Source of the DNA: Branchiostoma floridae
Taxonomy: Eukaryota > Chordata > Leptocardii > Amphioxiformes > Branchiostomatidae
Assembly: GCF_000003815.2 (NCBI RefSeq)
Contig: NC_049979.1
Location: 8,350,217 to 8,414,216 of the forward strand
Length of the DNA stretch: 64,000 nucleotides
Direction: 5' to 3'
The translations under genes were made by a program, and so were the position numbers. Every line of letters begins with the position of its first letter. The first letter of the stretch is position 1. Positions 11,496-62,750 of the stretch are shown here, piece by piece. The notes beneath the pieces are model-generated. The model made no database searches and was not told the origin of the DNA. It saw only the letters and a program-made list of their open reading frames with translations.

Positions 11496-12023
11496 GTCTT
11501 CATTCGTCATATATATATATGGGGGCTATTAAGATATTAAACAATGACCTCCCCCAGCACCTTTCCTCCGCATCAATTGGTAAAAACAAGGAGGTTGAAA
11601 AGAGCGGAATCTCCTTGGTCAAAACAAGGAGACGACTTCATAGTAAAGTTATATAATACTTTAACTGAAAAAACGCATTCCACAAACCACACTTCGTTAC
11701 CCTTTACATATAGATCTTGACAGGGTCGCTAGGGGCGCTAACTTTGTTGTGAATGACGTTGAAACTAGAACGGAGTGTTTCTGAGAAACCATATGGATTA
11801 TGAAGCATTATTGGATTATTGAAGCGCATGAAAAAATGTATATCGTCATCACCGACTTATGATTATGTCAACAGTGTTTCTCAACACGTTCGTATTATGC
11901 CGAGAGAGGTTAACTAAAGTTCTGTCGATGTTCCAGGTCATGTTCATAACACAAGAATGTCCAGAGGCTCATAACGGAGAAGGGAAAGCATTCGCTAATT
12001 GCCTCTCAGACCTCCTTGCTCAG
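8696..12023. other. Intergenic region, no gene recognised
   Basis: This follows the 5' end of the minus-strand GPCR and should contain its 5' UTR and promoter, but I see no decisive element. Scattered ORFs of 60-96 codons on both strands lack recognisable content or splice logic. An AT microsatellite at 11465-11493 and a truncated retrotransposon from 12024 close the interval. Confidence 0.4.
11465..11493. repeat. (TA)n microsatellite
   Basis: An uninterrupted TA dinucleotide run of about 14 units, with a second short ATATAT run at about 11509-11520. Confidence 0.9.
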
Positions 12024-27433: not shown

Positions 27434-29606
27434 CTATGGCGGCATTCTGGACCGGTCTCGTCTGTCCTCATCACTAGGGGGTGGTCTTCTCCCCATGGGA
27501 GGGGGGTTGGGAGACCTCCGGGGAGGGGGCGGGCCATGAGGGCTGAAGTGTTGGGGAGGGGGGCCGCCAGGGGGTGGGGGGCCCATGTAGTGCTGCAAAG
27601 TAAGACAGGCAAAAATCAATACACTTACATGTCTATGTCATGGGATAACTCTTTAAAATTTGGACAAAACAAAATTTTAAACAAGAAATTAGGAAAAATT
27701 AGGATTTATAGTGTTTCATATTTCTGATTGCAATAACTGTGTAATATAAGAGTCATGAAAGGGAGACTTGTTTGCTATGTCATGATTTCAGAGTAGACAG
27801 GTCAGCGTGAAAACAAAGAATAAAAACACAGCAAAAGTTAAAAATTTACAGTACCCGGACATGTAATAGTTGCAACAGTGTTAAGTAAAGGTTTTGAGTA
27901 CTCACCTGTGGGGAGTCTAATGGTGATGATGTTCGTGGGATACCCATGGGGGGAGGGGAGGGGGGTCCAGTTGATCTGGAGTCTGTCAGAAACAAGAGTC
28001 AGGTACCACATTAGCCAATAGAAATTACATTCTAAAATGTGGCTGCTCAAAGGGAGAGTTACAATCACAAAAGTGCACATGATGCAAACAAAGACAGAAG
28101 TAAACCAAGTAATATCTCAAGGCAGGTACACCACTGAAGTTGTGTGTAGACATTACAGGATCACAGAAAGATGACAAGAAATTCAGGAGAAAAAGACTTG
28201 AAGTGAGGAGATCACCTTGTGAGCCTGACTCCTCATCTGAAAGACAGACAACACACAGGACAGCTCAGAGAAAAGCACACGTAGCAAGAAGAACACCACA
28301 GAAGAGAATCATATCAAAATCACAAGAGTAAAGAAATAACATTGCCTCAATCTACACTTTTATTAAAATCCATTAATGGAATCAAATACCTGTTCTGTTC
28401 AAGCTATAATTGATCAAAAGAAACTGATAATTTGTTGACATCTTTAAAGAGTCATCAGTATCAGAGATTAACCATTAGTGTTGATGATACACGTCATGAA
28501 AGGAAAGTACAGCACAAACCTGGTCTCCTGGGAGGTCCTCTAAGCTCTCTGGGGCCTGACATTCTCCCAGAAGAAGGGGGTCCTCGCATAGGCATAGGAG
28601 GGAGGGATCCCGACCCTCTCCTCAGGTCAGGGGGTGTCATAGGAGGGGGGCCTCCTCGAGGGGGTGGGAAATCCATAGGTGGACCTCTGTGTGGACCTGG
28701 ACCGAAGTCAGGGTGGCCAAACGGTTCCGAGGGCGGTCTGCGATCAAAGTCTCTGTCAGGAGGAAAGTCCCGTTCAGAGGAAGGTCTACTACGGCGGTCA
28801 AAGTCTCTGTCTGGGAAGTCGTCCGGAGGGCCACGGAATGGGGGTGGTCCGAGGGGCGGAGGCCCCATGGGGGGTGGGGGACCTCGGAAAGCCATCTCTG
28901 GGGGTGGGGAAGGGGGTCCATCAAAATCACCATTACGGCCTGGAGGTGGACTTCTGCCGAAGGGAGGACCTGGATAGTGGAAATACACACAGGAATCATT
29001 GTCATACACATTAACACAGGTTAAGCACATGAAAACGTATACATTCTTTTCAAACAAGCAGTACAAGCAGTACAGTATAAACAACAAGTGAAGCATGCAG
29101 ATTCAGTTTCCTGAGTTCTGCAATCTGAACAGCTGAAGGTTTGGACTACTTTTAGTCTATATTCCTTATGTTTTTGTGGAGACATGACCATTTCATCAAG
29201 GAGGCATCAGGAAGAAAGCTAGTGGTTGTTGTTGTAAGGCATATATTTGTACCTACCGTGCCTGGGTGCCCCTGGGGGCAGCAGGGGTGGGGAGAACCGT
29301 GGAGGGAAAGGAGGTGGTCCTGAAACAAGAAAAAAAAATTATTAGACTTCATCTCATCTCATCAGGAAAAAGCTTCTCCTTTTTATAGGCTACAAATTTT
29401 GATGGGTTTCAGCACGAGTCAGCAGGGCTAAGGTTCCACATTGCAATACAAACAAACAAACATTAAGGTATAAATGAAAGTGGACAAGATGAAAACACAA
29501 ACAGCTTCTGAATGTACCATTGATTGGTGTTGGCTTGATCAGAGGTGGGGACTGCATCAGGTATTTGTCCTTCTCTTTGGCCAAGGCATTCTCAACTTCC
29601 AGCAAC
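27434..29606 (-). other. MIA3 Pro-rich cytosolic tail (exons 27-31)
   Basis: Exons 29606-29518, 29319-29257, 28969-28520, 27982-27906 and 27592-27434. After a last helical piece (LLEVENALAKEKDKYL) the sequence becomes dominated by PPP, GPP and Arg-Asp-Arg runs, e.g. GPPPPMGPPPLGPPP, ending DEDRRDRSRMPP. In TANGO1 this region binds the COPII inner coat (Sec23) through PPP motifs; many PPP motifs are present here. The strong GC and C-strand skew creates long shadow ORFs on the other strand. Confidence 0.85.
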
Positions 29607-32600: not shown

Positions 32601-35600
32601 AATAATGTGGCATGTTAACTTTAGAGTAACACCAACCAACTCACCAACATCAGTCCCCAACTTAATGAACATCAGTTTATAAACATTGTGTTGCAATGAA
32701 AAGTTCCACCAAAAACATACTAGCTACATTTCTTTGACCTTTAAATCAATTCCCCCTTTGTCCACCAATGTACATCTTTGACCATCTTCACCTTTCTGTT
32801 GGTATGTATTCTGCCATGATTCTGTGGAACACAACCAGTCCACAGTTCAAAGCTTGAAAATTTACCAGCTATATGTGTACAATGTCCTATTTAATACTAG
32901 TGATATGCAAGTGCAGTGCCAACAAAAGTTAGCAACTATGTGAACACTGATCCAAAGAAGGCATGTTAGGTGATACATGAACCAAAGAAACACTTACTGC
33001 TCTTGGCGTCCTTGAATTTCTTCTTCCAACTGAAAGAAAGAGAAAAGTGCATCCACCTTTAGTCACATTAGTAAAAACTTGTTCATTTGCAACGATAATG
33101 CTCAAATATGTTAACCATCAAAAGAATGCACATATACATGTACTTTAAACAGAAACCAATGCTAACTGAAGAAGCATGGCATTATCTAACACAATTGGCA
33201 GACCCAGAGCACCAGTCCAATCCTGTTATTTATCTTTGCAAAGGAGGTGCCCAGAAGTACTAGGAAAATAAAATCACATTTATCTGATAATCCATGTCAT
33301 ATACATATATACTTGTTGTTTCCCCACCTGACGTTTGCTCTCCTCCAGTAAGTCCCTGTGTTCCTTAATGTTCACCATCTCACTGTCAAGGTGTTTGGTC
33401 TTACTCTCGATCTCTGTTAGCCGCTCTTGTATCTAGGATTTCAAGAAGAACATTGGTATTGGTGGTGTTTTTCTGTGACAGTGTTACTAATTTTTAAAAT
33501 GTTCTAAAATGAGCTAAAATGAATTATGTTACCTGTGAAAACCTAAACACTATTTCATACATACTCTTAATTCCAAAATGAAATTCATCACATAAACACT
33601 TTACTGAACTCTGTTGGTTAACCACTAGTATATTATTCAAATTAGTCTGCAATAAAGTTCACATCAACATTACATTGTATACACACTATTTATCATACAA
33701 GTTATTTCTACAGTAAATACAGAAAATAGAAGGTTTTTGAACCAACCTTTTCTTTTTCTTTTCTCTCCTTCTTTAAGTTCTTCTTGTATTCTGTTTCTAT
33801 CTCCTGTTGTTTTGCATACTGTAATAGAGTAAAATCATTCAGTCATCCAATTAATCAACTCTATTTGCAATGACCTATTATCTATAATAATCGAAAATAC
33901 TAATCTAAAACATATTTAGCCAACTTTCCATTTTTGTGTGATTGTGTTGTGATGTTCAGAAGCTTCTTAAGAACACATATCCTACCTCTGAGGATGTAGA
34001 CTCTAACTGTTCCCTGGCCTCAGACACCTGGTCCATAAGTCTCTGGATCTCCTGGCGCAGGGTCACTTCCAACTGGTCATTAGATGATAACTTCTCCTGG
34101 GGGTCGGTTATTGGTTTATTTGTATCAGTACAAATGACCTGACTCTTTATCTCATATCCACTGCCACAAACTATTAGAACTATGTGTAATACTCTTTGTG
34201 GCATGGATTTTTCAAAGATATTGAACTATTCAGAGAACCTTTTATAACTCTTTTCCATCCGATCATCAAAACCTGCTAGACATTCCACTTTTTCTATGAA
34301 GATTACCCTAAATACAAGAACAAATTCTATATTTCAAGAATATGGAAGCATAACATTTTGCATAGCCGCTGTATTTATCAGTATTTCTAACAACTAACAA
34401 ATCAGGCACTTGCCAACAGTACATATAATATCAATAGCTCACCTCTAGTTCAGAATTCTTCTTGGACAAGGCTTGGGCAGAGAACTTTTCTACATCCAGG
34501 GTTTCTTCCAATTCTCGTATCTGTAATAAAGATGACATCTATTTATCACACAGTTACTCATGAATGGAAACATTCAAATGATAGCTGAAGCATCAACAAA
34601 AATGATACTAGTATTTGGATCACAGCAAAAGTTGAAGGCAAGGGATAGCCTGACTTACTCTGTCTTCAGCAGCCTCTGCACCCTTCCTCAGGTCTTCTTT
34701 CTCCTTAGCAGCTTTATCAATTTCTGCTTCTAGCTGTTTCTTCACGACTGGAAAATAAAGATTTTTTTTTTTCAAGACAAGGTACATAAAGGAGGAAGTA
34801 CTGACAGCTTAACCATAATAATCAGAAATAAATGACTATCACTGAAATGGTGCCTATAACAACTGAAGCTGCTAGAAATTCTAATAAGAAATAGGTAATC
34901 TTTTCCAACATTTAGCTCTGCACTGAGCTTAAGAGGTATTCACCAAATCAAAGAACAAAAAAATATCATTGAACTGAACAATGTTGTAGAAGTGGCGCTG
35001 TACTCAGCTCCTAAATCAATGAATAACCTTAGGGCACTGATAGAAGCGAAGACATTTATTTATGATTATTCATGGGTCAATGGTTTGGGTCAGTCCAATT
35101 AGTACACAACCCCTCAGGTAAAGTAAAGCACACAGAAAAGATGATTATTCTTACCTGCTGGGTCCACTGGTTTTCCATGGACACACTGTAAAGGAAACAA
35201 AGGTTTTACTGTTCAGTGCCAGCATTGTTTCACAGTTCTATACTTTTTTCTATGTAAAATGTAAAACCACCTCAGGGCACAAGTAACATGCTTGTTTTCT
35301 ATGGACTCATTAACATGGCTGCATGTTTGGAATGTGACCACCAAGGTCTCTACTAGTAAACAACTGATGTGACCCAAATCATTAGTACGTTCTGCAATGT
35401 CAACACAAATTCAAACATTATTAACAGCTCTGTCACAAAGTGAAAACATGAATTCTTTAAATCCGTCAACATAAAATTTTAATGAAGTTATGATTTTGAA
35501 GTGTGTGAACATGAACACATGTTTCTAACAAAAAGTGTTTTTCCTTTCCAAAGAAAACAACAAAGTTCTAAGAAACGTACCCGTGTGACACACTTGTAGG

Positions 35601-38600
35601 AAAAGACGCAGAATGTGACGATCCCGACAAGCAGCGTTGTGACCACGGCCAGCCAGGGTATGGGGATGCCCTGGAAGATCAGGTCGTTCGGTGTGTACTC
35701 CAGCCCCCAGCCGCGGAGCTGCTCCGCCCACTCCGGTGGCACCAGGGCCCCGAGCTGCCGACAAAAACACACAGGCATCTCCCTAAGTATCTTCAGAAGC
35801 ATCCCGTAAATCTGCAGCCAACTGATGGGTACTGGTACAGGGCAGCCGTACAGATCGGTAACCTCGAACCCGTAATGTTGGCAGATCAACTCGATATTTT
35901 GGCTCATGTTGACTCAAAGACCCCGTTCACACTCAAAAAAATGAAGCGGCTTCAACGTCGAAGCCGCTTCAACGGGCAAGCCGCTTCAAAAAAATTACGT
36001 TCACACTCATTTCATACAATCCGATTAATCGCACACAATTCCGTACCTGGACTTCAGGTACTTTTTTACAACATTGTTTGTAGGTTTTCTCAAACCCACT
36101 CTTAATAGTCTTATATCATGATCCAGAGAGAAAGCTGTTCAAAGATATGCTTGTTTCTTGTGATTTTGTTTTAGCTTGCTGTGTTTCCTCTCTCTTCGCG
36201 TGATAAAAAAAGCTTTGTTTGCTTCCCATTCCACTTGCCTTGACCCTACAGCGATTTTTTTTCTTTCCAGACATTATCATTGGGCACAAAAATCAGTAAC
36301 GTGAGCAAACCTGTCAGTGTGGCGTGTGTTCCTGCTCCCGATACCTGGATATATAACCTCCAACAGGGGGCAAATCGGAAATTTGCATAGAATCTATCCC
36401 GCGTTGCGTTCACACTCGCGATTTCAGCCAAGCGGCTTGGTCACAAGTGTTTCAAACTACCTCTCAGGGAAGGATTGAAAACGAGCCGGATCGGTGAAAA
36501 TGCAAGCCGCTTGGAGCGTTCACACTCAAGAATACGATCCGGATCAAGCGGCTTCGACGTTGAAGCCGCTTCATTTTTTTGAGTGTGAACGGGGTCAAAG
36601 TCAAATGATCTCAACTCAAAACGACAGGTAAATACGTGACAACAAATCGATCATGGAAAGGTGTGCAGCATAGACATGACAACATATGGACATGACAGCA
36701 AAAACGATAAGTTTCTTCCAATATTCTTTTAGAACACGATCATCAAGAATTTAGAAAGACATTCTAACAGATATTCGTAAAGAAAAATCTACTGCCCCCC
36801 TCCCCCTTCAGATCAAGGTTTGGTACTACTACTTCCGATCGTGATTTTACGACACAAGACCCCAAAGCTACGATCAATCGTACCTCCACAATCATTGAAA
36901 AATAACTTCATTAGCCATATGCTGTCAAGATTAATCGTCAGATTCTCTAGAATTGAGAGAAAGTTCACCTTTCCGAGCGATATTCGCAACGTAAGCGGGC
37001 TGGCGGTCGCCATCTTTGCTACGTAATCACAGTGCGAAGTACACGTCAGACGTGTCCGGGCGGACGAAGGTCGCGGATGTTTACGGAGTTTTCAATAGTT
37101 CCAGCCGGTACATTATCGATCGTCGCACAGCAGAGAAAGTACTTGACGAAACGAAGAATTTTTCACCGGATGTGCGACACTTGACCCCGGGCACACAACA
37201 GGGTTACTCAATTAGCCAGGGGTTACTACGGAGGCATATTCATTCCTGAGTATATAGTGGGCGCAAAGTCCCTAACCATACAGAAAAACGGATTATCGTA
37301 AACGTGGCAGTTTGCACTGGTGCCGTGATCTACTTGAAGGCCGCTCTATCAAGCCTGTCATGAGTTTTGGCTTTTCGATATTGTGGCTTTGCTTTTCACT
37401 AAAAGCTGGTTTAGGGTTACTTTCCTACTACTGAGCTTTATCGTTGACAATGTAACTTTAACGCTTAACAGTATAACGTAACATATAACGTTAATGTTCA
37501 TAATATTAAAAAAAATATGTATTTTAAGTATTTACAATGCCGACAGGATAACTGTAACATTGCTAAAAATGAATCATGTATTTTCTTTCTAGACAACGTT
37601 ATTGCCTTTTAATATTCCACACCATGTCTTTGAAGCTTGTTTTGCCCACTGAGACCTACCATTTCAAGAAACTGGAAGTCCAACACTATGTAGATGTCCT
37701 CAGTGTCAGTCTTTGAGATGTCTTCTGTTGGGAATTCAAAAGATATCAACAGCATTCAGCAAAATGAAATAAAACCATAAAGGAAAAGAGACTGCATGAT
37801 CAAAAGTTTGTATAATTTCTTAATAGACAAAGCACCCAAGGAGAGACTTGAGCTTACTTTTGTTTTGATTACACATTTGTGCAGCACTGTTTGCAAATGG
37901 TCCACCTGATAAAAAATTCATCTCCTTACCATCTGCTTCCAATTCAGAAGCAGTTGCTGGTTCTGATGTGGGTTGCTCTTTGTCTGCAGCATCTGTCTGG
38001 TCTGGTGCAACTTCCTCCTCTTTCTCTTCTTCTGCTCTGAGGGCATCTAACTTCTCAGAGTCAAGGCCAACCTTGTCAATGACTTGTTCCGGTTTGGCAC
38101 CTTCCAAGTACAAGTTAAGTGTTCTTTCTGTACTGCGTCCATCCCAACCATACCCCCGTGCAGGTTCATCAGGCAGTATGTATTGTGGTGTTTGTGCTGT
38201 AGCCTGGTCTGAAGGCACACTTGTCTCAGTTATATGTGCAGACTGCAGTGGCTCAGTTGGCTGAATAGTTGTAGGATCTGCAACACCAATGCTGTCTGTT
38301 TCTCCCATGTCTGGAGAAACCTCACTGCCTTGCAACAGTTGCTGCATCCCTGGTTTTGCTACATCTTTCTCCAGGTCCCCAATGGCCATATCATCTGAAC
38401 TGGCAGTTGCTTCTGTTTTCATGTCTACGACTGGAGTGGACAGCATGCTGTCAGGACTACTTTGAACACTTGTGGGCATTATGTCTTCCCCAAATGGCTG
38501 TCCCATTATTTGGCTGTATTCAGACATAAATGCCTCTTTGTCCAGAACCTCATCCCAATCAAATGGTAAGTCCTCAGTTGACATGGCAACATCATCATCC

Positions 38601-50600: not shown

Positions 50601-53600
50601 ACTTTAAGTTAAGCAATTAGTACATCTCGTTTGTGATCAGAGGTTATATTTCTACTGGGTCACACACTAATGGTTTCAAGCCATGCTACTAAGCAGCACT
50701 ACTAGTGAGTGTAGTATGAAGGTCAAAAGAAAAAAAAGGCTAAAAAGGCTTCTATCAGATGTTTCAAGAGGTGAGCTTTTTTTTATCTCAGTAGCTGTCC
50801 TACAGGTTGAAGAAGAATGTCAGTTCTACTCAGCTACACAGCTCTAGAGACACTACAGGGAAGCATCTTTGCCTGCCCCCTACTTGGAGCTGAAGCAAGT
50901 CATTGTGACTCACATGTAACAATACTGTGTGCAGTGTGTTTGGCACTTTCTGGCTGATAGCCATCCTCTTTGGCACTTTCCGATTCCTTTGTCTTTCCAT
51001 CAATGTCAGTGTCACTGTCCATGTCTGTCTGTATTGGCTGAGTTGATGTCGGGGTGAGAAGTGAAGGTTCTGTAGATACAGTGAACCCATGAGGCTTGAC
51101 CATGACCTCAAGGTACTGTGACCAGGAAGTACTGATAGCTTTTGTGTGAGAAGTCTTTACTACCAGTTCTGGAGCTGTGATAACTGCAGGGACAGGATCA
51201 CGACCAGAAACTGTTACATCTGTCTGCACAGTTTGGTCCTCTTGGCTCACCACCGTGCTTGTCGTTTTAGGTGTCCCAACTGAACTTGTAAGCAAACTCT
51301 GTATTAGCTGACTGTAAGTGTGTTTGGCACTGCTTTTTGCATGAGGCTTAGCTAGAGGTACCTGATCAGGTTTAGAAACTGGTTTGCTGATAGCTTCAGT
51401 CGTTGAGTCAGATGTCACTTCTGGTTGGTGTGAGGTTTCCTTGCCCAGGTAATCCAGGAAGGTCTCTGTCATCACCTGTGAGTATGTGGATTTGGAAGTA
51501 CTGTCTGGTGGAAGTCTGGGACTAGTGGGTAAACGTTCCTTCCTATCAGGGGATGGGATGGTCTCAGTAATGTGCTGATCCTGGTCTATGTCTAAAGCTG
51601 CTTTGCTGAGTCTTTCATCTGATGCTTCAGGTACTGCCTGGTCAGAGTACATAACTGCCATTGTTTGAGAATAGGTTGGCTTGGCACTATTTCCAGTGGG
51701 GAATTTCCTCACCCTTTCCTCACCTCTCTCTGCAACCTCCAATATTTCTCTGCTTTCTTTATCTGTTGTTAGGAAAGCTGTTGGCACTGGATGAGTTGAC
51801 AGTTTGGATGTATCTTCAGCTTTGAGAAGACCTGTCATCACCAGAGAGTATGTGAGTTTGGCACTATGTTCAGAATCTGTGAGTTTGGCACTATGTTCAG
51901 AATCTGTTAGTTTGGCACTGTGTTCTGAGTCTGTAGGTTTGGCACTGTGTTCTGAATCTGTAGGTTTGGCACTGTGTTCTGAATCTGTAGGTTTGGCACT
52001 GTGTCCTGATTTGAGCATGTCTTCCATTGCTTCATGTACAGGCAGTGAGGGTGTCACAGTTTTTAGTGTTATGGGACCTTTGTAAAGCTCTATCATTACC
52101 TTGGCATATGTTGGACTGATTGTGGTGTCAGTAGGGGGAAGGTTGGACAAAATCGAAGAAGCGATCTGGTCAGTGGAAACTGGTGCACTTGGCTCTGCCA
52201 GATCTTGATCCAGATCTTTGTCATCAGTAGCTACTGGTTTTGTTTGTTCCAGTCTTTTTAATTTTTGTGTGCTTGACTGACTCTGGTCAGTTAGAATTGA
52301 TTCTACTGTTTGAGAATATGTCAATTTGGCACTGCTCTTTGTAAGCGATTTAGCTGGCATGGAGGGTGTTGAGATTTGACTAGGTTTAGTTGTTGGCACA
52401 GGATGTTGAACTGGTTTTGGAACCATGTTTTCAGCAGCTGATACTGATTGTGTAGGTGTGTCATCAGCTGTTTCAGTCAGGTGAAGAGGTGCCATTATCC
52501 TTGTGTATGTGGCTCTGGGAGTCTTTGCTAAGGTGATGTCATTTACCACAAAGGGTGTGCTGATTGGCATAGTAACAACGTCTGGTGTGTGAGCTGATAT
52601 TGCTACAGCTTTGTGCGCTGTTTGGTCAAAATGAGATTCTCTCATTACATGTGGATAAGTGGGTCTGGAGCTGCTCTCTTTGGAAACACTTGGCACAGCA
52701 GAGAGGTCGTAAATGTCATCTGCAGAACTTTTCTCTTCTGTTTTGGCACTCATGTCTATGTCTTTTTCTGCAGATCGTGTTTCAGGTGCTGTTTGACTGT
52801 GATATATACCTGTCAACATCTGTGAATATGTTGGATTGGGAACATTTCCTGTAGGGACTTTGGATATGGTAGAGGTTGTTGAGGATTGCTTTGGAGGCAT
52901 TGTTGCCTGTTTATGAGTGTCTACTTTGTGGTCGTGACTGGTGCTTTCTACATCTTCAGGTCTTGGCCTGTGTTCTGCGATTTCAAGATCAGAAAATATC
53001 TGACTCTGATAAACACTCATGACGACCTGCATGTACGTGGGTCTGTCTGCATATTCTGTGGAGTCTTTATGTGTGATGTCCAGTGTTGGGATTTTATAAA
53101 CAGAATCTATTTCATCCATCTGCTTCACATGCCCTTCTTTGCTGGTTGCAGTTGCCTCACTGAGTTTTGTTGAAGTTGGCAAAGCCTTACCTTCAGAAAG
53201 ACCTGTCATCACCCTCATGTATGTTTGTGTGGGGGTATGCTTTGTGGGAGCAATGTTTGTGTCTGGAGAGATCATTTTATCACCAGATACTGTAAAAACT
53301 TCCTGAGCAGATCCCTGTGGTTGGCCAACATCTTTATATGTAGATTTCATAGCCCTGGCAGCTGAGATGGTTAATGTGCTTGGTGACATCTTCTCTAAGT
53401 TCAGTCCCATGACTTGTAAGTATGTGAGTTTCAATTCACCTTCAGTGAGAACTTTGGGCACAACATAGGGTGAAGGCACGCGATCACCCAAAACTGTTGG
53501 ATCTTTCTGAAGCACCTTTGTTTCTTGGTCGAGGTCGTCAGCCAAAGGTGCAAGTGTCGTCACTGATTTTGAAGAGGATATAGCTTCAGTCCAGTACAAA

Positions 53601-56600
53601 CCCGTCATCACCTGGGAGTAGGAATTTCTACTGTTACTTTCTCCCATACCCTTACCCAACATTGATGATGGATGTGAAGCACTATCATCATTGTTAGAAA
53701 GGAAAACTTTTACAGTTTTTCTTTGTACCTCCGGCATTAGATGATCAGCTGACAAATCAACACTTCTTTCTTCTGTTGCAGTCAGCAAAGAGCCCTTTTG
53801 GACCACACCATTGCCAAATGCTAAGGAAGTGTAAGAGGGTCTGTCACTCTTCATTGAAGTGAACTTTCCTGTTATTTTTGTTTCTGCATCCTTTGAAGGT
53901 GGGTGGATATCCCTTTCAGTTTCTAGTGGATGGTCAGGCTTGTGATGCTGATCCCCAAGCATAGCAAAGATGTAGGATGTACTGTCACTTCTTGCAGAAG
54001 AAAATTGGGCTGCTGTTTTTGATTGGGGAGAGGCACTGTCCTTACCTAACCAATGATTATCCATGATAACTCTATTGTGACCATGCATAACAGAGACATA
54101 TGAAGGATTTTCACTTCTTGTGGGTAGAAAATCCTTTTGTGATGTTGTTCTACCAGGTTTCTCAGCCTCAAGTTCATTTGCAACGGCACCTTCTATTGCA
54201 CCTTGTTCCTCAGCTGCTTGGCTTTCCTTCTTGCTTACAACATTTTTTACCTCCAGCAAGACCCCATCCTCCACTGCTTCATCTGACAGTCCAATATCTA
54301 TATCATCTTCTTCATTTAGCACAGTCCCCTGAAAGACCTTATCCTTTGACTTCAGCATTACTGCCATATACCTGTGCTTGGGAGTAAGACCACTATTTTG
54401 TTGTTCTTTGTCAGGTTGGTCATTGGCAGGTTCTTCTAATCTAGACTCTTCCTTGGTCCCAGTTTGTGCCTTAAGATTCCCAACTGTCTCAGTTTCTTCA
54501 TTAAGATCCCCTTCTGTCTCAGTTTCTTCCCCGGGATCCCCAAGTTCAGACTGTTCCTTACGATTCCCTTCTGTTTCAGATTGTCCCTGACCATCATGCT
54601 CTGTCTTAGCTTGATTGTTTAGATCCTCTTCTGTCCCAGTTTGTTCCTTACTATCTTCTTCTGTCCCAGTTTGTTCCTTACTATCTTCTGCTGTCCCAGT
54701 TTGTTCCTTACTATCTTCTTCTGTCCCAGTTTGTTCCTTACTATCCTCTTCTGTCCCAGTTTGTTCTTTACCATCTTCTTCTGTCCCAGTTTGTTCCTTA
54801 CTATCATCTTCAGTCCCAGTTTGTTCCTTACTATCGTCTTCTGTCCCAGTTTGTTCCTTACTATCGTTTTCAGTCCCAGTTTGTTGCTTACTATCATCTT
54901 CTGTCCCAGTTTGTTCCTTACTATCGTCTTCTGTCCCAGTTTGTTCCTTACTATCGTCTTCTGTCCCAGTTTGTTCCTTACTATCGTCTTCTGTCCCAGT
55001 TTGTTGCCTACTATCCTCTTCAGTCCCAATTTGTTCCTTACTATCGTCTTCTGTCCCAGTTTGTTCCTTACTATCTTCTTCTGTCCCAGTTTGTTCCTTA
55101 CTATCCTCTTCAGTCCCAGTTTGTTCCTTACTATCCTCTTCTGTCCCAGTTTGTTCCTTACTATCTTCTTCTGTCCCAGTTTGTTCCTTACTATCCTCTT
55201 CTGTCCCAGTTTGTTCTTTACCATCTTCTTCTGCCCCAGTTTGTTCCTTACTATCATCTTCAGTCCCAGTTTGTTCCTTACTATCGTCTTCTGTCCCAGT
55301 TTGTTCCTTACTATCGTCTTCAGTCCCAGTTTGTTCCTTACTATCATCTTCTGTCCCAGTTTGTTCCTTACTATCATCTTCTGTCCCAGTTTGTTCCTTA
55401 CTATCGTCTTCTGTCCCAGTTTGTTCCTTACTATCGTCTTCTGTCCCAGTTTGTTGCCTACTATCCTCTTCAGTCCCAATTTGTTCCTTACTATCGTCTT
55501 CTGTCCCAGTTTGTTCCTTACTATCTTCTTCTGTCCCAGTTTGTTCCTTACTATCCTCTTCAGTCCCAGTTTGTTCCTTACTATCCTCTTCTGTCCCAGT
55601 TTGTTCCTTACTATCCTCTTCTGTCCCAGTTTGTTGCCTACTATCCTCTTCAGTCCCAGTTTGTTCCTTACTATTTTCTTCTGTCCCAGTTTGTTCCTTA
55701 TTATCCTCTTCAGTCCCAGCTGGTTCCTTACTATCGTCTTCTGTCCCAGTTTGTTCTTTACTATCTTCTTCTGTCCCAGTTTGTTCCTTACTATCCTCTT
55801 CTGTCCCAGTTTGTTCCTTACTATCTTCTTCTGTCCCAGTTTGTTCCTTACTATCCTCTTCTGTCCCAGCTGGTTCCTTACTATCGTCTTCTGTCCCAGT
55901 TTGTTCTTTACTATCTTCTTCTGTCCCAGTTTGTTCCTTACTATCCTCTTCTGTCCCAGTTTGTTCCTTACTATCTTCTTCTGTCCCAGTTTGTTGCCTA
56001 CTATCTTCATCTGTCCCAGTTTGTTCCTTACTATCGTCTTCTGTCCCGGTTTGTTCCTTACTATCTTCATCTGTCCCAGTTTGTTCCTTACTATCCTCTT
56101 CTGTCTCAGTTTGTTCCTTACTATCTTCTTCTATCCCAGTTTGTTCCTTCAGATCTGTCTCAGGCTGTTCCTTACTGTCCACCTTTGATTCAGTTTGTTC
56201 CTTGAGGCCCTCCTGTATTTCAAGTGGCTCCCTTCTATCTTCTTCTGTCTTAGTTTGCTCCTTGAGACTTCCTTCTATATCAGGCATCTCCTGAGTATTT
56301 TCCTCCAAGCCAGGTTGACCCTGATTGACCATTTCTTGTTCATCCTTTTCATCAACCTCCTCTTCATCCTTTGGTGTGATCTCTGCTTTGTGAATGTGCT
56401 TTGATGCAATAAGTTCTTCCTCTGTCCACTGCTTTTTGGCTGATGGGACAGGTTTAAGATCCTTCTCTTCTACATCAACTGACTTTAACGTTCTACCTTT
56501 CCATACATCTCCCATAGCTACTGGCTGCTGCATGTCATTCAAGTCATCATCAGTAAAGAAAAATTCTATCCTCTCCTCAAAGTGATCTGCTTCATCTGGC

Positions 56601-59600
56601 TCTTGTACTTTGTCAGTGGCCATCATATGCAAGAGAAGAGGGTCCATAGTTTCTTCCATCTGCTGTTGTTGGTGGTGATGATATAGTATTTCCTGATCGT
56701 GCTGATGATTTGCCATATCATCTTCCCATTCTCTGTAGTCGTGTTGCAAATGTTGTTCATGTCTATGTTCATGCGTATGGTGAGTGTGCGTTGGGTCAGA
56801 ATCTCGGTAGTGTTCGTTGTGATAAAAGTGAGAAGCATGTCTGTCATGTCTGTCCCATTGTCTGTCCGTGTGAGTGTACTGCACTCTCTCGTGATCGGGC
56901 CCCGGACCATGCCAGTGCGGTTGGCGTGTGTCTGGTCTGTAGTCATCTACTGGTTGTGGGGTTAGTGGGTTAGGTACAGTTAGTGACAGCATCAACCAAC
57001 AGCAAACAAAAAACAAAAACATGAAGGGAATGCAACCAACAAAACAAAAGTCAACATAATAAACTAAAGCAAAGTAAACAAAACAAAACAAGACATAAGG
57101 AAAATATCAAACTCACAAGCCAAGCAAAACAAAAAGATGCACACAGTTTATATGTAACTGTCTAACATGCAGGGACAGCTCTAGCTCTAATTCCCCGGCT
57201 AATTAACCAAACTGACCATGCGAGTGATTAGGTTGGTTAGAGGATGTATGTTCTTGGCTGGCAGATGCTTAATGAACTCATGTTTCACCCTTCCTTTGGG
57301 TTTACATGACTAGTAATTTACATGGTAAAACCAATTGCAAAGTACAAACTGACAGCTGACAAAGCATTGTATGGTTTGACAAGAAATTATATACATGACA
57401 CAAACGAACAAAACACACGAAAAACATGACAAGCACAAATCGCTGATGCCACTTTTCTCTTCTTGCAACAAGGTGATGACTTACCCTGTTGTGATGATTC
57501 TTCATGGATGTTCTGATTCTCCCCATGCTCATAATGTGGGTGCCCATAGTCCCTCTGTTCATGCTGATGGTGAATGCCATAGGGAGAGGGGTCCTCCTGG
57601 TGGGATGTACCATGTTGGGCTTCAGGGGGTGTTCCCTGTGGCCAGTGCTGCTGATGAGATAGTGGGACGTCATGTTGCAGACCACCTGTCCTCTGTTCAG
57701 GGTGACCTTCCTCAGTGTGATATGGCACTTCATAATGAGACACTTCATGATGGGGCATACCATGTTGCTGCTCCTGTGGGGGTGCCCCATTTTGCCCGAC
57801 CTGTTCAGAGGGGTCGCCATAGTTCATAGGTTCCCACTGAACACGGACAGGTTTGGCACCATGGTCCTCCCCCTCCTGACCCATATACTGAACCATCCCC
57901 TCCTCTTCATTTGGCACTTGTGATCTCTGTACAGATGGGTCCCCCCTCCCATGCATAGTCCTAGGGTCTTCCCCTTCAGACCCTGGGGCCAGGTGATCCT
58001 GGGGGTGACCATGAGAAGTGTCTTCTTCCTCTTGGATATTTCCTTGCAGTGCTTCCTGTAAAAAAAATGCATAAAGCAGACATTAATGATTGAGTTTATT
58101 CATGTTTGATGCAGGAAGACAAACAAGGGCAGAGGTTAGACAGCACAGACACTTAAAAATGATATCAAAAACTCTCAACTCCAATACTAATAGGGAGAAT
58201 GTATTTCCACTGAGTACTAGAAATATTTGCTTGTTCTCATGCTCATTCATATACCATTAGCTTTCATTTCATATCTTAACGTTACATATATATTTGATAC
58301 TAATAGGAGTGATTTATATCTAATAATGGAAACACTCGCTTTCATGTTCGTTCATTATTACTTATTCTGCTTTATTACAAAACACATGTGCTTATTGCAT
58401 CACTTTATGTGCATCAAGAACTACCGCATGCATTCAGAAGAGTTTTTAAAAATGCCTTCCTTACCTTTGTAGGAACTATATGTGGCAGTGATGTATGAAA
58501 TATATTCAGCTCTACCAGAGCATCCTTCCTAAAGTACCCAAACGTGTCCTCCTTCCCAGCAACCTGTCAACAGAAGGAACAAAATGTTTGTAAAATCCAG
58601 GGTTGTCTCCAGTTTTGAATTTTTCATGTCCCACTCATTTTTGGGAGTCTATGTTGTTAAGTTTCATATTAGAATCTAACAAAATATATTCTGATAAATT
58701 TTATGTCATGAAGTTTTTTGATAGGTGGGATAACTATTTTTCCCTCCAAAAAAGAAATTTCCGTCCCTCAAGATGGAGAGATGGGTCTTGGGTGACAGCC
58801 CGGACCAATAATACACATACATTGTACTATAAACAGCAATGCTGATGAATCTGATAATGATGTTGATGAGGACAAGGAATCGCACAGGATTTTTAATCTG
58901 GCATGATAATATATTTATTATATGTATTGTAATGACAGAGGAAATATCTTACCACCCCTCCCCACAAGCCATTCTTGTCTGCCTCCTTACTGAAGACAGT
59001 GATGACATCATGAATGTTGAAGGACAGCAGACGAGGGTCAGCTGACCTGTAGGACTTCCTCGCACGGCCCTGAGAAATGGCCTCTGGAAGGACACACATG
59101 TTCTTTAAGTTAGCAAAGGGATATTTGGGGCATATGTCTGGGGGTCAGTTTGGTTGCTAGTCAGTACTTAGTAGTTAGTACTAACTTACTATGTTTCTGA
59201 AGGCTAGAGTACGAGGGGAAGGATAACCTCAAGCCAACCGTTCACACTTATGCCACATCTTCAGAAAAGACGCTGGAGCCGCATGTTCCCTGTATAGGAA
59301 CTTAAATTCCAACCAGTACACAACAACCATGTTTCGCCGTGTGGCTCTCTCAGTGTTATAGGCTCAAATCTGAAGGCTGTTATTGTTACAGAGTTATGGT
59401 GTGAACTAAAAAAGCAGTAAGAATAGCAATAACCTCAGGAAATTACTTCCAGAAATTAATTTGCAACTGTAGCTTGGGTATTTGACTGGAGTCTGGGTGG
59501 TGACTGTTAAGTGAAAAAAGTTGGTCACTTGGTCTGAGGCAGCGAGACATCAACAAAACAGTACAAAATTTTTTAAAAGCCAGATAAAAATGTATAAAAA

Positions 59601-60759
59601 ACAATAAAAAACAGCCGGAGCCTAACCTCTTCTTGGAGAGAACTGAGACAGCAATGCTAGTTCTGAGCAGCCATGAAATGGCAAGATTGCCAAAATACTG
59701 GCTGTTTCTTCCCATGTTGTATATCACATTGTCAATCATTAACTGCTCAACAATAAACAGAGTGAACACCACCTACAGGGTGTAAAGCTAGTTACACGTA
59801 GTATCATTCATATGTTAGTCCATGGACATTGACAATTTTTCATTTTCAAAGTTTTCAATACACTAAGATCCGACAACATGGTAACGTTAACACTACAGAT
59901 CCTGTTAAACTTAATATTTTATTGCATTAACTCTGAAGGCAACAAAACAGTCAACAACACCCCCAATCAATGTATCTACGACTAATACAAGAAAGGTCAG
60001 GATGTAACTAATTAGTAATGTCTGATGGATGTTGAAACTCCAAAATGTGCCTTATTTTATATCTTAGACACTTGTTGATAGACTATAACGTTAACTTCAT
60101 GCTGGACTTTCAGGCCAAACCACTTCTGAACATATGTTAATCTATTGTTATCACAAATCAGCAATAAATTATTCATGCAGCAAGATAGGCTGCCCTTTTC
60201 ACCATTTCAGTCATGGGGCTTCTTGTAATTAAAAAGAAAGGTCGCAGCGATATTGTTACCTGGACACATACAATAGCACGCCAGGGTTCGCCTGTTTGAA
60301 CGCATTGTGTCAAAGACGCATTGATTGCTTTATAATAACAGTTGTTTATTACCCAACCTATGGCCATGATTGCAAGCGTGTCTGAACGCCATGTTCCTCC
60401 ATAGTAACAAGAACGGTTACACGTTGGCAATACTCCAGCCTCTAGTATGATCGTGTACAATATATCGATGATAGCAGTTACACATATGTTTTGATCAGCT
60501 GGCCAAAGCGCGCGCGGTCAATCAAATTTAGACAGTGTCCAAATTATGCCACGCTGACTATCTGTGTAACAACACACACACGGTTATACTACAATATTGA
60601 ACAGCAGGAGAGAAGGATGGAGAAAATTTCAACGCCATTACCTCTGCAACTTGCGTCCACGCATCTCTGAGTTTGAGGAATGAAGGAATCCGCGGATTTG
60701 AAGGCGAAGTCAGACAAAACGATCGCAAGAATCGCCACCAGCCGACCGGCGGCCGCCAT
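27434..60759 (-). CDS. MIA3: TANGO1/MIA3, giant form: ER-exit-site cargo receptor, 31 coding exons
   Basis: Thirty-one exons on the minus strand join in consistent phase from the ATG at 60759 to the TAG at 27434, about 6,503 codons. Order: signal peptide; MIA-type SH3 domain; His-rich segment; a very long repeat-rich luminal arm; a membrane segment at about residues 5786-5807; coiled coils; a Pro-rich tail. The assignment rests on the SH3 sequence (SADPRLLSFNIHDVITVFSK, then FGYFRKDALVE) and the coiled-coil stretch ERSFRNQIASIEKKAHESW, which is nearly the vertebrate TANGO1 sequence. Known role: at ER exit sites the SH3 domain engages HSP47-bound procollagen in the lumen, while the cytosolic part recruits COPII coat through its coiled coils and Pro-rich region. 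Vertebrate TANGO1 is about 1,900 residues, so this lumen is several-fold larger. Exon coordinates are in the part entries below. Splitting into two genes is possible only if a promoter inside the locus is used, but every junction is in phase. Confidence 0.9.
29795..35185 (-). other. MIA3 coiled-coil region (exons 12-26)
   Basis: Fifteen short exons: 35185-35155, 34747-34659, 34520-34443, 34096-33986, 33818-33747, 33432-33328, 33029-32998, 32262-32172, 31927-31849, 31491-31439, 31194-31104, 30846-30708, 30443-30342, 30134-30038, 29862-29795. They encode about 410 residues rich in Glu, Lys, Gln and heptad Leu, e.g. KKQLEAEIDKAAKEKEDL and NEQLKENVQYKENEIE. The exon at 31927 (VLRDCLMQIKALESE) and the one at 30134 match vertebrate TANGO1 coiled coils. 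These coils mediate self-assembly and pairing with cTAGE5/MIA2 and recruit tethers. Confidence 0.88.
35581..35907 (-). other. MIA3 membrane exon with possible alternative start (short isoform)
   Basis: The exon ends at 35581 (ACACGG|GTACGT). The membrane span is PWLAVVTTLLVGIVTFCVF, preceded by a hydrophobic, probably membrane-embedded segment (SWLQIYGMLLKIL), as in TANGO1. Two starts are plausible. For the long form, an acceptor CCTGTACCAG places the exon start at 35831 in the phase required by the upstream exon. For a short form, an ATG at 35907 opens the same frame (MSQNIELICQHYG) with an in-frame stop just upstream. A weaker acceptor just upstream of that ATG (TTTGAG|TCAACATG) is also phase-compatible. 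Mammalian MIA3 is known to make a short isoform without the lumenal domain. Confidence 0.7.
35919..36596. mobile_element. 678-bp MITE with about 50-bp perfect terminal inverted repeats
   Basis: The left end reads GACCCCGTTCACACTC and the right end is its complement; the two termini match for about 50 bases. A nested palindrome (AAGCGGCTTCAACGTCGAAG) lies within each end. Flanks give either a 3-bp AAA duplication or, if the element is taken to start one base later, 5-bp CAAAG, so the superfamily is uncertain. There is no transposase frame. It sits 12 bases upstream of the alternative MIA3 ATG. Confidence 0.85.
36600..37260 (-). promoter_or_regulatory. Candidate internal promoter for a short MIA3 transcript
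   Basis: The minus strand contains AAAGATGGCGACC (about 37005-37016), resembling the YY1 site often found at TSS-proximal ATGs; the main MIA3 ATG has a similar context (ATGGCGGCCGCC). That ATG opens a short frame with a potential donor (GGAAAG|GTGAAC). This is suggestive only; no initiator or TATA is clear. Confidence 0.3.
37261..37929. other. MIA3 intron sequence, nothing recognised
   Basis: AT-rich intronic sequence between the acidic exon (donor at 37929) and the candidate internal promoter. No repeat or ORF of note. Confidence 0.4.
37930..41208 (-). other. MIA3 giant exon 10: Glu-rich acidic luminal domain
   Basis: A 3,279-base exon (acceptor TTTCTGTCTTCAG, donor GCAGATG|GTAAGG), phase 1 to phase 1, encoding about 1,093 residues. 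The first third is extremely acidic with EEDxQQE-type runs and an 8-residue tandem repeat; the middle has mixed acidic disordered sequence. The last 300 residues are better mixed, with possible amphipathic or coiled stretches (ARQQLREQVEKLTKSD, LRQEMLDWTAKMKEKREEAR), resembling the membrane-proximal luminal helices of TANGO1. High net negative charge suggests Ca2+ buffering or a repulsive brush, by inference. Confidence 0.82.
40380..40745 (-). repeat. 24-bp coding tandem repeat (EDTQQEGG)
   Basis: About 15 imperfect copies of an 8-codon unit reading EDTQQEGG or variants (EDTEQEDG, EDTKQEDG), in frame within MIA3 exon 10. Copies differ by a few substitutions and small indels (e.g. REEDTQKEGG), all frame-preserving, as expected under coding constraint. 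Confidence 0.85.
41671..42234 (-). other. MIA3 small linker exons 8 and 9
   Basis: Exon 8 is 42234-42172 (63 bases; FKVKAIDATDEDKDLSSMGVE) and exon 9 is 41736-41671 (66 bases; AFSPQRPSPGLDWVTSGQAP). Both have clean acceptors (TTTGTCCCACAG, GGTTGTAGCAG) and donors, and both are phase 1-1, so either can be skipped without shifting the frame. No domain is recognised. Confidence 0.7.
42530..43685 (-). repeat. Eight CPxDxNC[T/S] motifs (Cys pair plus N-glycan sequon)
   Basis: Reading N to C: CPADASCS, CPADLNCT, CPADFNCS, CPVDGNCT, CPADGNCT, CPADHNCS, CPVDLNCT, CPADHNYT. They are spaced about 39-102 residues apart in the C-terminal part of MIA3 exon 7. Six have both cysteines and an N-C-[T/S] sequon; the first lacks Asn and the last has Tyr in place of the second Cys but keeps the N-Y-T sequon. 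Each follows a hydrophobic helix-like lead (e.g. SLFWTCPAD), the same place where upstream repeats have TCPLK. Confidence 0.85.
45560..46935 (-). repeat. 168-bp coding tandem repeat, about nine copies
   Basis: The landmark sequence GAATGAATGCTGTGGGGATG (plus strand) recurs near 45.57, 45.73, 45.90, 46.06, 46.23, 46.40, 46.57, 46.74 and 46.90 kb, mostly 168 bases apart. Each unit encodes 56 residues including PTSPQHSFINAITLTCPLKE, HHTQVMARLDLPPSS and VPEEPKTAPVLQ. Copies in the middle are the most alike, consistent with recent unequal exchange. Confidence 0.88.
48748..49190 (-). repeat. Three tandem copies of a 141-147-bp coding unit
   Basis: Near-identical units encode LTYWEQLTHMHRPTS, PEDKHYRHE and ILPTDGTAQPVCPS. 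One copy has a 6-base in-frame insertion. High identity implies recent duplication at the 5' end of MIA3 exon 7. The YWEQLTHM core resembles the YxEVMT core of the later units. Confidence 0.88.
49402..49613. mobile_element. 212-bp MITE with about 54-bp inverted repeats
   Basis: The left end starts GCTAGTTCACCCTTATCCG and includes GGGTAACCTATATCCGTTGC; the right end is the complement with three differences. The centre is itself a smaller palindrome (TGCAATAT...ATATTGCA). The target duplication is unclear (flanks ATAAC and ATTAC). It lies in the intron between MIA3 exons 6 and 7. Confidence 0.8.
49614..50404. other. MIA3 intron, nothing further recognised
   Basis: AT-rich intron sequence between the MITE and small exon 6. 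Overlapping short ORFs on both strands have no recognisable content. Confidence 0.4.
50405..50461 (-). other. MIA3 small exon 6 with a basic cluster
   Basis: A 57-base exon, acceptor CCATTTTCAG and donor AGAAAAG|GTAAGTG, phase 1-1. It encodes SKEEHDTNLEQKRSHRRK, linking the two largest exons. The RSHRRK cluster fits a minimal proprotein-convertase pattern (R-x-x-R), but it could be just a basic linker. Confidence 0.65.
51852..52013 (-). repeat. 27-bp coding tandem repeat, six copies
   Basis: Six head-to-tail 27-base units encode the 9-residue repeat HSAKPTDSE, with a Pro/Leu difference between the first and last copies. It lies in the Tyr-core part of MIA3 exon 5 and is directly followed by LTYSLVMTGLL, so it looks like a local amplification of the linker before one Tyr core. 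Confidence 0.92.
54621..56155 (-). repeat. 30-bp coding minisatellite, about 50 copies
   Basis: An essentially gapless array of 30-base units (plus strand CTGTCCCAGTTTGTTCCTTA plus ten variable bases) encoding SKEQTGTEED-type decapeptides. Variation is mostly E/D at the last acidic positions and occasional RQQ, KEP or TAE. Runs of variants recur in the same order (for example around 54.8-55.05 kb and 55.23-55.5 kb), showing a higher-order duplication of about 420 bases. No stop codon or frameshift occurs in 1.5 kb. Confidence 0.95.
57485..58055 (-). other. MIA3 exon 4: His/Gln/Glu/Pro-rich luminal linker
   Basis: A 571-base exon from acceptor CATTTTTTTTACAG to donor CAACAGG|GTAAGTC, entering in phase 0 and leaving in phase 1. 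It encodes about 190 residues rich in His, Glu, Gln and Pro, e.g. HHEVSHYEVPYHTEEGH and HYEHGENQNIHEESSQQ. The His-rich composition continues into exon 5. It lies directly after the SH3 domain. Confidence 0.78.
58465..59083 (-). other. MIA3 exons 2-3: MIA-type SH3 domain
   Basis: Exon 2 is 59083-58953 and exon 3 is 58563-58465. Together they encode about 77 residues: AISQGRARKSYRSADPRLLS with FNIHDVITVFSK, NGLWGGV, then FGYFRKDALVE. This is the family pattern ('GRA..DY...D.R.L.F..GE.I.V...LWAG...FGYFP.D.V'). The preceding Cys pair (C33, C38) matches the family's conserved N-terminal disulfide region. This domain binds HSP47/procollagen in vertebrate TANGO1. Confidence 0.9.
60642..60759 (-). 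other. MIA3 exon 1: signal peptide
   Basis: ATG at 60759 in the context CAACATGGCGGCC. Residues 1-24 form a hydrophobic signal peptide (RLVAILAIVLSDFAF), followed by CVDASCR; the donor is TTGCAGAG|GTAATGG. An upstream in-frame ATG at 60846 would add 29 residues (MPGTSAS...) ahead of the signal peptide and is less likely. Confidence 0.82.
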
Positions 60760-62750
60760 GTTGGATTTCCCTTTTGCGACGACGCAGGCGCAGCTTGGCG
60801 CGGACACGTCAGCGGGAATCGCGTCACTTGCGGAAGTTCCTGGCACATTCCAGTGTTAGTCTGTTTGGGAAGGGGGTCATTTCAGCACTGTAAACATCTA
60901 ACGACCAAGGGTGGAAAACAACACCATGCATATCCGCTTGCAATCTGATGCATGTATATGATAGAACAAATCAACCATCCCCGGATTCACTTTCACTTTC
61001 AAAACATTTCACTTTCAAACCATTGATCTATCTGTGTTGGGATCTATTAGGACTTTATTAATTCAATATATCGATGTATGGGGGTAATAGAATGTAGAAA
61101 CAATTGATTTGGTTGGTCATATATTGCTATCAGATAGCTTACACGTATTTCCCTCGGTGCTGACACTGGTAGGTGCACACGACTTTGATACTGTAAACGT
61201 CATTTGCCTGGACGTAACGTTATACACGTGTGCTGAATTTTATAGTACGCCATAAAGAGTCGCAGTCGCAAATACACACATTGGGAAATATGCAGATTCC
61301 AGAATGGCTGTGTGTCCCATTCAACTTCTTAATTAACACTTTCGATATAAAGAAAACATCATTATCTTAAAAATCATTATCTTTTTTTTTTAAATTTTGC
61401 TCGATCAAGGAGTTTACTAGTAATATAAAAGGTTTTAACATCCTTGGCTCGATACACCACCCAGGGTATCCCACAGCCTTTCAAATATGATGTCACTGAG
61501 GAATATACGATGTAGTATAAAAATCTGTGACGTGTTAAGACCTTTGTTTATATCAGCCCATTGACGCCCGTGCTTTGTGTGTTGTGTTTGCATATGGCAT
61601 TCAACGATCCCGGATCTTGCTCACAACTAACGTCAGGGTCTGCTCGGAGCTGTACGTACGAAACAGACTCGCGCTCGATATCGGTGAAACTTTACCGGTG
61701 TTGTGCCGTTTTATCCCACAAGTATATACGGAGTTCAATTTTGTATTAGTAGACAATTTCCCCCATATCTTGTGTTCAAAATTACAATCAGGTCTTTTTC
61801 TTCTCGACATATTGAAAGTTTATTTGCAAGTTCATGCCCGTAGGCCCATTGCAAGTATATGGAAGAAACAAAGATAGGGGACACGCATGTCACATTGAAC
61901 AGTGATAAACATTATTGTGCAAAGAGGCATAGCCTGACATGTCATGTTTGAACGAGACACGTCCTTGTTCCCTTTAATATCCCTACACCCCCTCCCATCT
62001 TAAGACCTTTAGACGCAACACTGGCACACCTTGTTCTTCGAGTCTGAAGATTTGTTTCTTTTGTCCCAGTCAGGTATTATCCCTGTATCAACACCTGGCA
62101 TCTCCTGGCGACAATCATGCGTGGAAAGAATAACATCTACGTCATCGGTCACTAAATATGCAGGCTTTTATTCAGCGATACAAACGACATTTCCTCTAGA
62201 TCTGATTAATGCTTTTTGCATCAAGTTCATGATGGACCAACACAGGCGACAACTGTTGCTAAGTCAATAAAACCGTAAGGTGGTATGCAGAATGATGTAA
62301 GTCAGCTGTCAGAGATCTCATTAAATGTACATGTATGACGAACACCTTTCTTTGTGGTTTAACGTCCAATTGTAGCCATGTAAATCTTTTGAGTTCGTTT
62401 TCTTGTAACAGGTGTTCGCCCGAGGATTATTGGGTCGGGTAGTAATACGCCATGCTCATCAGCGAGATATGACAGAAATATTCTGTTGCTTTTTTCACCG
62501 TTAGCTTACAGCCTGTGACCCGTCTTAGAAGGACTTACGATACATAAACGCAAGGTCCTAGTAGCAAATGGGAGCGACTTAATTCAGCTAACATCAGATG
62601 ACGTCCACTCGATCTGTATCTCAGTCAGCTGCGGCGGTGGACCTTGTCAAAGCTATGTCTAGAACGGTGGTGAAGCCTGACCGTGCTGTTCTTGAGTAAC
62701 TCTGATGAAGTTTCGGAAACAACACGACTGAGTGGTCACACTGTGGGATC
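60760..62750. other. MIA3 promoter side and intergenic sequence
   Basis: The first 80 bases upstream of the MIA3 ATG are GC-rich, consistent with a promoter and 5' UTR. No TATA or other decisive element is seen. The rest is AT-rich, with small ORFs of no recognisable content. Confidence 0.4.

Follow-up and report, generated by a model that had tools for sequence, protein, structure and literature searches.

The minus strand of the 64,000-nucleotide stretch of Branchiostoma floridae DNA analyzed here (hereafter the window) carries three giant open exons, flanked on one side by exons for an SH3 domain and on the other by exons for a membrane segment, coiled coils and a Pro-rich tail. This raises the question of whether all of these belong to one TANGO1/MIA3 gene and, if so, what a protein with such a lumen might do. 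The family is a known one and the gene model is well supported; it is the luminal part that is unusual. The reading we favor, with a probability of about 0.7, is that of a single TANGO1/MIA3 gene encoding a very long TANGO1L, which would serve as a splice-tunable multivalent capture brush, together with a short form probably expressed from an internal promoter.

Gene structure and TANGO1 family membership

An independent rebuild of the locus joins 33 minus-strand exons, from 60759 (the first base of the ATG) to 27434 (the last base of the stop codon), into a single uninterrupted reading frame of 6,507 residues. All 32 introns are of the GT-AG type and the phases are compatible at all exon joins of this model. 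The start and end are those given by an earlier note on this DNA, whose tally of 31 exons (about 6,503 codons) is replaced here by 33 exons and 6,507 residues; a model without the 21-nt exon 31 has 6,500 residues. An assembly gap of 100 N (27105-27204), presumably within the 3' UTR, lies 229 bp past the stop codon.

The exons, all on the minus strand, fall into a luminal, a membrane and a cytoplasmic set. Exon 1 (60642..60759) supplies the start codon, the signal peptide (within a hydrophobic segment at residues 1-27) and the beginning of the SH3/MOTH domain with its CVDASC sequence; by domain search, this domain continues through exon 2 (58953..59083) and ends in exon 3 (58465..58563). Exon 4 (57485..58055) codes for lumen rich in His, Gln and Glu and ends in phase 1 at a strong donor. 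There follow the giant exon 5 (50914..56949; 6,036 nt, 2,012 codons), exon 6 (50405..50461), which is a phase 1-1 basic linker of 19 codons containing KRSHRRK, the giant exon 7 (42456..49220; 6,765 nt, 2,255 codons), the phase 1-1 exons 8 (42172..42234) and 9 (41671..41739, with a NAGNAG acceptor), and the giant, membrane-proximal exon 10 (37930..41208; 3,279 nt, 1,093 codons), which has a strong acceptor. Exon 11 (37660..37724) encodes the moderately hydrophobic segment of the long form and ends in phase 0 with LDFQFLEM. The transmembrane segment, common to the long form and the candidate short form, lies in exon 12 (35581..35754); exons 13-28 (29518..35185) specify the cytoplasmic coiled coils, and exons 29-33 (27434..29319) the Pro-rich tail and the stop codon.

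Elsewhere in the window there is a frame for a rhodopsin-family GPCR at 7880-8701 on the minus strand (7tm_1, E 5.7e-14) and, at 11832-13686 on the plus strand, a retroelement reverse transcriptase fragment (RVT_1, E 1.2e-12) followed by a 404-residue open frame without a Pfam match. The region 18893-20961 (minus) holds a further open frame, of 534 residues and likewise without a Pfam match, with a weak MYND-finger match (E 0.0017) below the cut-off downstream of it.

The family identity is anchored at both ends of the protein. Pfam recovers an SH3_2 domain (E 2.5e-7) within the first 116 residues, and a search of PDB sequences with the SH3 part, taking matches up to E 1, places human TANGO1 (7r3m, E 1.5e-4) at the top of 12 matches, with the CxDxxC loop covered, followed by MIA (E 3.4e-4). 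The cytoplasmic part aligns colinearly with human TANGO1S (sequence from PMC8524724), beginning at the membrane segment and reaching as far as the onset of the Pro-rich region, with 27% identity over 499 columns (E 3e-37), and the end of the coiled coils reaches 42% identity over 132 columns (E 4.9e-17); these E-values assume a nominal database of 2e8 letters, and coiled coil forms part of the match and inflates the similarity. The block NQIA..EKKAHE.W..AR..ER...KREAA.LR.KLLE, conserved with the human form, is specific despite this inflation. The Pro-rich exons 29-33 carry many PPP and are predicted, from their sequence, to form the Sec23-binding domain. Judged by these matches, the assignment to TANGO1/MIA3 that the earlier note had made is secure.

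Within this family the SH3 domain is of an invertebrate type. Residues 1-130 contain Cys33 and Cys38 only, a single pair belonging to the CxDxxC loop, and hold no Cys for the second disulfide that tethers the C-terminus to the RT loop in the vertebrate-type MOTH domain. In this the SH3 domain differs from that of human TANGO1L and is like that of Drosophila Tango1, a protein reportedly of about 1,400 residues, far below the lancelet one. The single Cys pair, together with the mosaic CpG pattern of the window (see below), fits an invertebrate origin, and the absence of the second disulfide is described for invertebrate TANGO1 in the available excerpt of PMC10119292. As in Drosophila, where Tango1 is the sole member (PMC7829582, excerpt), one gene would encode the complete TANGO1. 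With human TANGO1L (MIA3, 1,907 residues; PMC8524724, excerpt) the protein has in common the luminal SH3/MOTH domain, the membrane segment, the coiled coils and the Pro-rich tail; however, the human lumen comes to about 1,100 residues (1,907 less the 785 of TANGO1S, from the same excerpt), against about 5,715 here, encoded in giant exons that bear repeats.

Repeats and motifs of the luminal arm

The luminal arm spans residues 25-5739, which corrects an earlier estimate of about 5,600 residues to about 5,715; most of it comes from the three giant exons. Its giant exons have the marks of coding DNA. Exons 5, 7 and 10 have no stops in the reading frame, against 81 and 245, 194 and 113, and 45 and 120 in their respective other two sense frames, and first-order simulation of the 33.4-kb locus, repeated 100 times and read in three frames, produced no open frame longer than 219 codons. 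The periods of the tandem repeats in the giant exons are divisible by 3 in 16 of 16 rows, as against one of the six other rows of the window (the rows partly overlap), and the copies in these 16 rows match at 70-93%, so they are diverged. The view that the arm grew largely through internal repeats is upheld: by a hand sum over the tandem-repeat rows, tandem arrays make up about 5.5 kb of the giant-exon DNA, which totals 16.1 kb, and diverged units extend over residues 1417-4110.

Exon 5 comprises an acidic part, 50 ten-residue units of the DSKEQTGTEE type and then Y-x-Q-V-M units of mostly 59-69 residues. The ten-residue units correspond to an in-frame 30-bp tandem array of 53.3 copies at 54552..56149 (minus). 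Among the 50 copies, pN/pS is 0.41 and the differences fall mostly on the third codon position (564/523/1628); the out-of-frame controls give ratios of 1.55 and 0.61, one of them thus also below 1. The eight 56-residue repeats behave otherwise: with a pN/pS of 0.86, codon positions differing evenly (358/386/361) and lower values in the out-of-frame controls (0.62 and 0.75), this comparison gives no sign of purifying selection in them. Hence, this eight-copy array is either young or weakly constrained.

In exon 7, units with Y-x-E/Q-V-M motifs and TCPLKE half-motifs give way at the end of the exon to CP(A/V)DxNC(S/T) repeats (42456-43700, minus), in which the N-glycosylation sequon itself contains a Cys. 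The two motif types alternate, with resolved units of 52-103 residues and three longer gaps of 130, 223 and 562 residues in which the pattern is not resolved. There are six exact CP[AV]DxNC[ST] copies and a few degenerate ones; each exact copy includes an NC(S/T) sequon, and nine of the 16 luminal sequons lie in residues 4200-4593. The strict Tyr pattern Y[STMVI][QE][VLI][ML] has 17 occurrences between residues 1084 and 4592; in 1,000 shuffles the mean was 0.08 and the maximum 1. A looser Tyr pattern matches at 32 places ahead of residue 5740, and a Cys pattern matches at 27, two of which overlap. The arm can accordingly be described as a series of about 30 Y-x-(Q/E)-V-M-like and about 25 Cys-centered motifs in S/T/P-rich surroundings, with a spacing of mostly 52-112 residues where it is resolved.

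The arm is strongly acidic. Its net charge is -595 and its Asp+Glu content 19.6%, rising to 36.8% in exon 10, and the sole basic triplet cluster of the lumen is the KRSHRRK of exon 6, between the giant exons 5 and 7. Exon 7 holds 71 of the 73 luminal Cys, the other two being the SH3 pair in exons 1-4, and exons 5 and 10 have none. A hydropathy scan (19-residue window, threshold 1.3) identifies three hydrophobic segments in the 6,507 residues—the signal peptide, the exon 11/12 segment and the transmembrane segment—and at this threshold no further span in the luminal arm. An AlphaFold model of one repeat unit has helices at positions 2-9, 13-16 and 38-48, the first and last lying over the two motifs, with a mean pLDDT of 56.0 (78 for the first ten residues); a model of the Cys-rich region, made without an alignment, contains nothing confident (pLDDT 33.5). 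The arm, with a contour length of about 2 µm, is probably mostly disordered, low-confidence AlphaFold models being in themselves no proof of disorder.

Searches for relatives of these repeats gave little. Pfam returned nothing above the cut-off for the giant exons (two were without matches and one had a single match below the cut-off), and neither the exon-7 unit profile nor that of the CPAD repeats found a match among PDB sequences up to E 1. Compared with each other, the exon-7 and exon-5 unit profiles gave a probability of 19.6% over 13 columns only, and the exon-7 unit and CPAD repeat profiles one of 18.1%; from these sequence profiles, a common origin of the exon-7 units with either of the other two, beyond the short motifs, is not established. 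Two comparisons with known TANGO1 sequences were set aside. Against the human lumen, for which the query was approximate, exon 10 scored best among the giant exons, at 24.3 bits (E 0.053), a score surpassed among 60 block-shuffled controls, of which the highest reached 26.6 bits; the likeness of the CPADHNC repeat to the CADDEC loop of the MOTH domain is at chance level in BLAST (E 1.7) and is a lead only. Exon 10 contains two copies of an EDENA motif, which presumably resembles the human luminal motif EELLEDENAI.

Splicing and the extent of the transcription unit

How much of the arm enters the mature protein would depend on how the giant exons are spliced. We scored splice sites with a model trained on sites from outside the luminal block (24 donors, 24 acceptors) and ranked them among all GTs and AGs of the locus; an alternative weighting of the scores gave similar ranks. 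The donor of exon 4 is in the top 0.4% of GTs, with only that of exon 6 stronger among exons 4-11, and the acceptor of exon 10, in the top 0.2% of AGs, is the strongest of exons 5-12. Between them are weak sites: the acceptors of exons 5, 7 and 9 rank in the top 35.7%, 7.5% and 18.5% (7.7% with the second AG of the NAGNAG for exon 9), and their donors in the top 10.0%, 16.7% and 7.0%. All of exons 5-10 are phase 1-1, and ten skipping patterns (exons 5, 6, 7, 8, 9 or 31 singly, and the blocks 5-7, 5-9, 5-10 and 8-9) all remain in frame with no stops. Since the exons are symmetric and skipping keeps the frame, the locus looks built for a variable arm length. For exon 5, an alternative in-frame acceptor at 57063 (top 1.4%) outscores the one at 56949, and the additional sequence codes for a hydrophobic stretch; its use is the less likely, as a membrane span at this point would place the giant exons in the cytoplasm and upset the remaining topology.

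These features bear on the most serious rival to our reading. With exons 5-10 symmetric and the block flanked by two strong sites, a donor on one side and an acceptor on the other, the gene could also yield a form of ordinary size: skipping exons 5-9 (exon 4 to exon 10) gives a frame of 2,177 residues without stops, and the weak sites of exons 5, 7 and 9 mean that this form may coexist with the long one or even dominate. In its strong version, the rival holds that this product, near the vertebrate size, is the normal one, that exons 5 and 7 are rare or tissue-specific cassettes and that the 6,507-residue protein is rare. The site strengths and the in-frame skip favor it; however, the small exons 6 and 8 inside the block have good splice sites, and exons 5 and 7 contain no stops in 4,267 codons and have frame-keeping tandem periods. 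Exons left unused for long would decay, and hence these two appear to have been kept coding. On balance, we regard the strong version as unlikely, and prefer a TANGO1L in which the giant exons would be joined into the mRNA.

The extent of the transcription unit can be approached through the CpG content of the DNA. Gene-body methylation leads to CpG loss, for which the CpG o/e ratio is the customary proxy (PMC8857923, excerpt), and in most invertebrates methylation is concentrated on transcribed genes (PMC11292947, excerpt). Two stretches are depleted, 37.5-60.0 kb with a CpG o/e of 0.172 and 25.3-35.3 kb with 0.233, as compared with 0.92 upstream of the gene (60.25-64 kb) and 0.83 toward the left end of the window (3.25-25 kb). 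Exonic and intronic DNA give like values, with 0.157 for the giant exons and 0.226 for introns 2-10. A CpG-rich region at exon 1 (60250..62000), where 500-base windows are mostly at 0.86-1.15, is the presumed long-form promoter. From exon 2 to exon 11, the highest 500-base window (0.73, at 49.25-49.75 kb) lies over a 220-bp inverted-repeat element of intron 6 (49398-49617), with 54-nt arms that are 93% complementary and an o/e of 0.77 within the element and 0.24 around it; the next-highest windows, both at 0.53, are at the start of exon 5 (56751-57250) and in exon 10 (40501-41000). This profile places the giant exons in one long CpG-depleted unit with a CpG-rich start at exon 1, and so favors the single transcription unit assumed earlier. 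It supports, but does not prove, their splicing, since it concerns the DNA and not the joined mRNA.

A second rival would make the giant exons one or more separate secreted-protein genes between an SH3 half-gene and a TANGO1S half-gene, as in the sponge Amphimedon, whose luminal and cytoplasmic parts are separate proteins (PMC7829582, excerpt). The in-frame extension of exon 5 up to the acceptor at 57063 does read MFLFFVCCWLMLSLTV, which is signal-peptide-like, but this stretch is T-rich DNA directly preceding the acceptor. CpG o/e rises mildly where exon 5 begins, whereas depletion runs across all the giant exons and introns 2-10, with no window above the one over the intron 6 element. An internal CpG island (see below) suggests that the 3' half is able to start alone; however, the phases match at each join, including that between exon 11, ending in phase 0, and the in-phase, fair acceptor of exon 12 (top 4.5%). 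We consider separate genes very improbable. That the arrays were over-expanded, or foreign coding DNA inserted, through an assembly or haplotype artefact is scarcely credible: long tandem arrays are difficult to assemble and a 100-N gap lies just past the stop codon, but the gap is beyond the coding region, the array copies have diverged, the frame is open all through the giant exons and their CpG level is close to that of the neighboring introns.

The internal island, a probable short form and a proposed capture brush

The single TANGO1/MIA3 gene that we prefer has a second CpG-rich region. This internal island (35401..37500, minus; o/e 1.05, or 1.04 without an inserted element) covers the membrane exon 12 and is likely a short-form promoter, a candidate that adds to what the earlier note had described. 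The 5' end of the membrane exon can be drawn in two ways: at the acceptor at 35754, as in the long form, or farther upstream, by an extension to an ATG at 35907. This extension (35755..35907, minus; 51 codons, beginning MSQNIEL) would start a short form of 807 residues in total, whose frame is open and whose ATG is preceded by an in-frame stop (TGA GTC AAC ATG). An alternative candidate first exon at 36969..37013 (minus), reading ATGGCGACC..AAG and ending in phase 0, would instead yield 771 residues. A 678-bp inverted-repeat element (35919-36596), with 58-nt arms that are 95% complementary, ends 11 bp upstream of the short-form ATG. A scan of 36900-37100 for bacterial promoters gave no match, the model being a bacterial one and inapplicable to an animal.

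The arrangement recalls human TANGO1S, a protein of 785 residues whose start lies in exon 6a, just ahead of the transmembrane exon 7 (PMC8524724, excerpt). Like the human form, the candidate one would start just upstream of the membrane exon, be of similar length (807 versus 785 residues) and have the membrane exon and coiled coils in common with the long form; they differ in that the start here, as read from the DNA, falls in sequence that prolongs the membrane exon itself in the 5' direction, behind an inverted-repeat element. A two-promoter layout of the locus is therefore likely, and an armless, TANGO1S-like form of 807 residues is probably made from the internal promoter. A literature search for TANGO1S together with invertebrates gave no match.

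These elements suggest how the locus might work. The upstream promoter would drive TANGO1L, with an SH3/MOTH domain of the collagen-binding type at the tip of an acidic arm of about 5,715 residues, anchored by the usual membrane segments and followed by the usual cytoplasmic part. The arm itself would be a sticker-and-spacer chain of short Tyr and Cys motifs set on polar, S/T/P-rich sequence, and may act as a multivalent capture brush, whose many weak contacts would retain bulky cargo, or condensates of cargo, at the exit sites of the ER. Skipping or inclusion of the giant symmetric (phase 1-1) exons would tune the length of the protein from about 2,200 to 6,500 residues, and the acidic root of the arm by the membrane could bind calcium. 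The short form would supply the cytoplasmic functions without the arm.

Disordered multivalent transport barriers, which we take to be of the FG-nucleoporin type, offer a parallel: there too, short motifs with hydrophobic residues are spaced by polar sequence. The motifs of the arm are different and it resides in the ER lumen, and so the likeness is one of design only, with no homology claimed. The available excerpt of a 2026 study (PMC13255678) proposes that disordered TANGO1 domains may recognize procollagen in condensates at exit sites and likens them to transport-barrier systems and to PEX13; such recognition through multivalent weak contacts fits an arm whose polar chain bears short motifs by the dozen. 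A fuller version of this idea we put forward tentatively, as a possibility to which we give no great weight. In it, TANGO1 of this lineage has become a splice-tunable, nucleoporin-like ER capture brush, its arm ranging from about 1,400 to 5,700 residues through symmetric giant cassettes. The arm would combine an array of Tyr motifs, a polyacidic membrane-proximal segment and an array of Cys and N-glycan sites, the CP(A/V)DxNC(S/T) loop of which may echo the acidic CxDxxC disulfide loop of the collagen-binding MOTH domain, and the two-promoter system would predate the vertebrates.

No giant TANGO1 lumen appears among the titles listed for TANGO1 searches, including those with Branchiostoma or amphioxus, in which subscription papers are thinly covered. 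The accessible part of a 2023 paper (PMC10119292) has invertebrates with TANGO1 only and vertebrates expressing different isoforms; if the lancelet locus makes its short form, that view, as worded there, needs revision, and a non-vertebrate internal short-form promoter, if true, pushes the origin of the long/short pair back. The luminal role of TANGO1 was still called elusive in a 2021 review (PMC7829582, excerpt). A five-fold longer, motif-repeated arm that is apparently adjustable by cassettes would permit a direct test of the idea that cargo is recognized in condensates.
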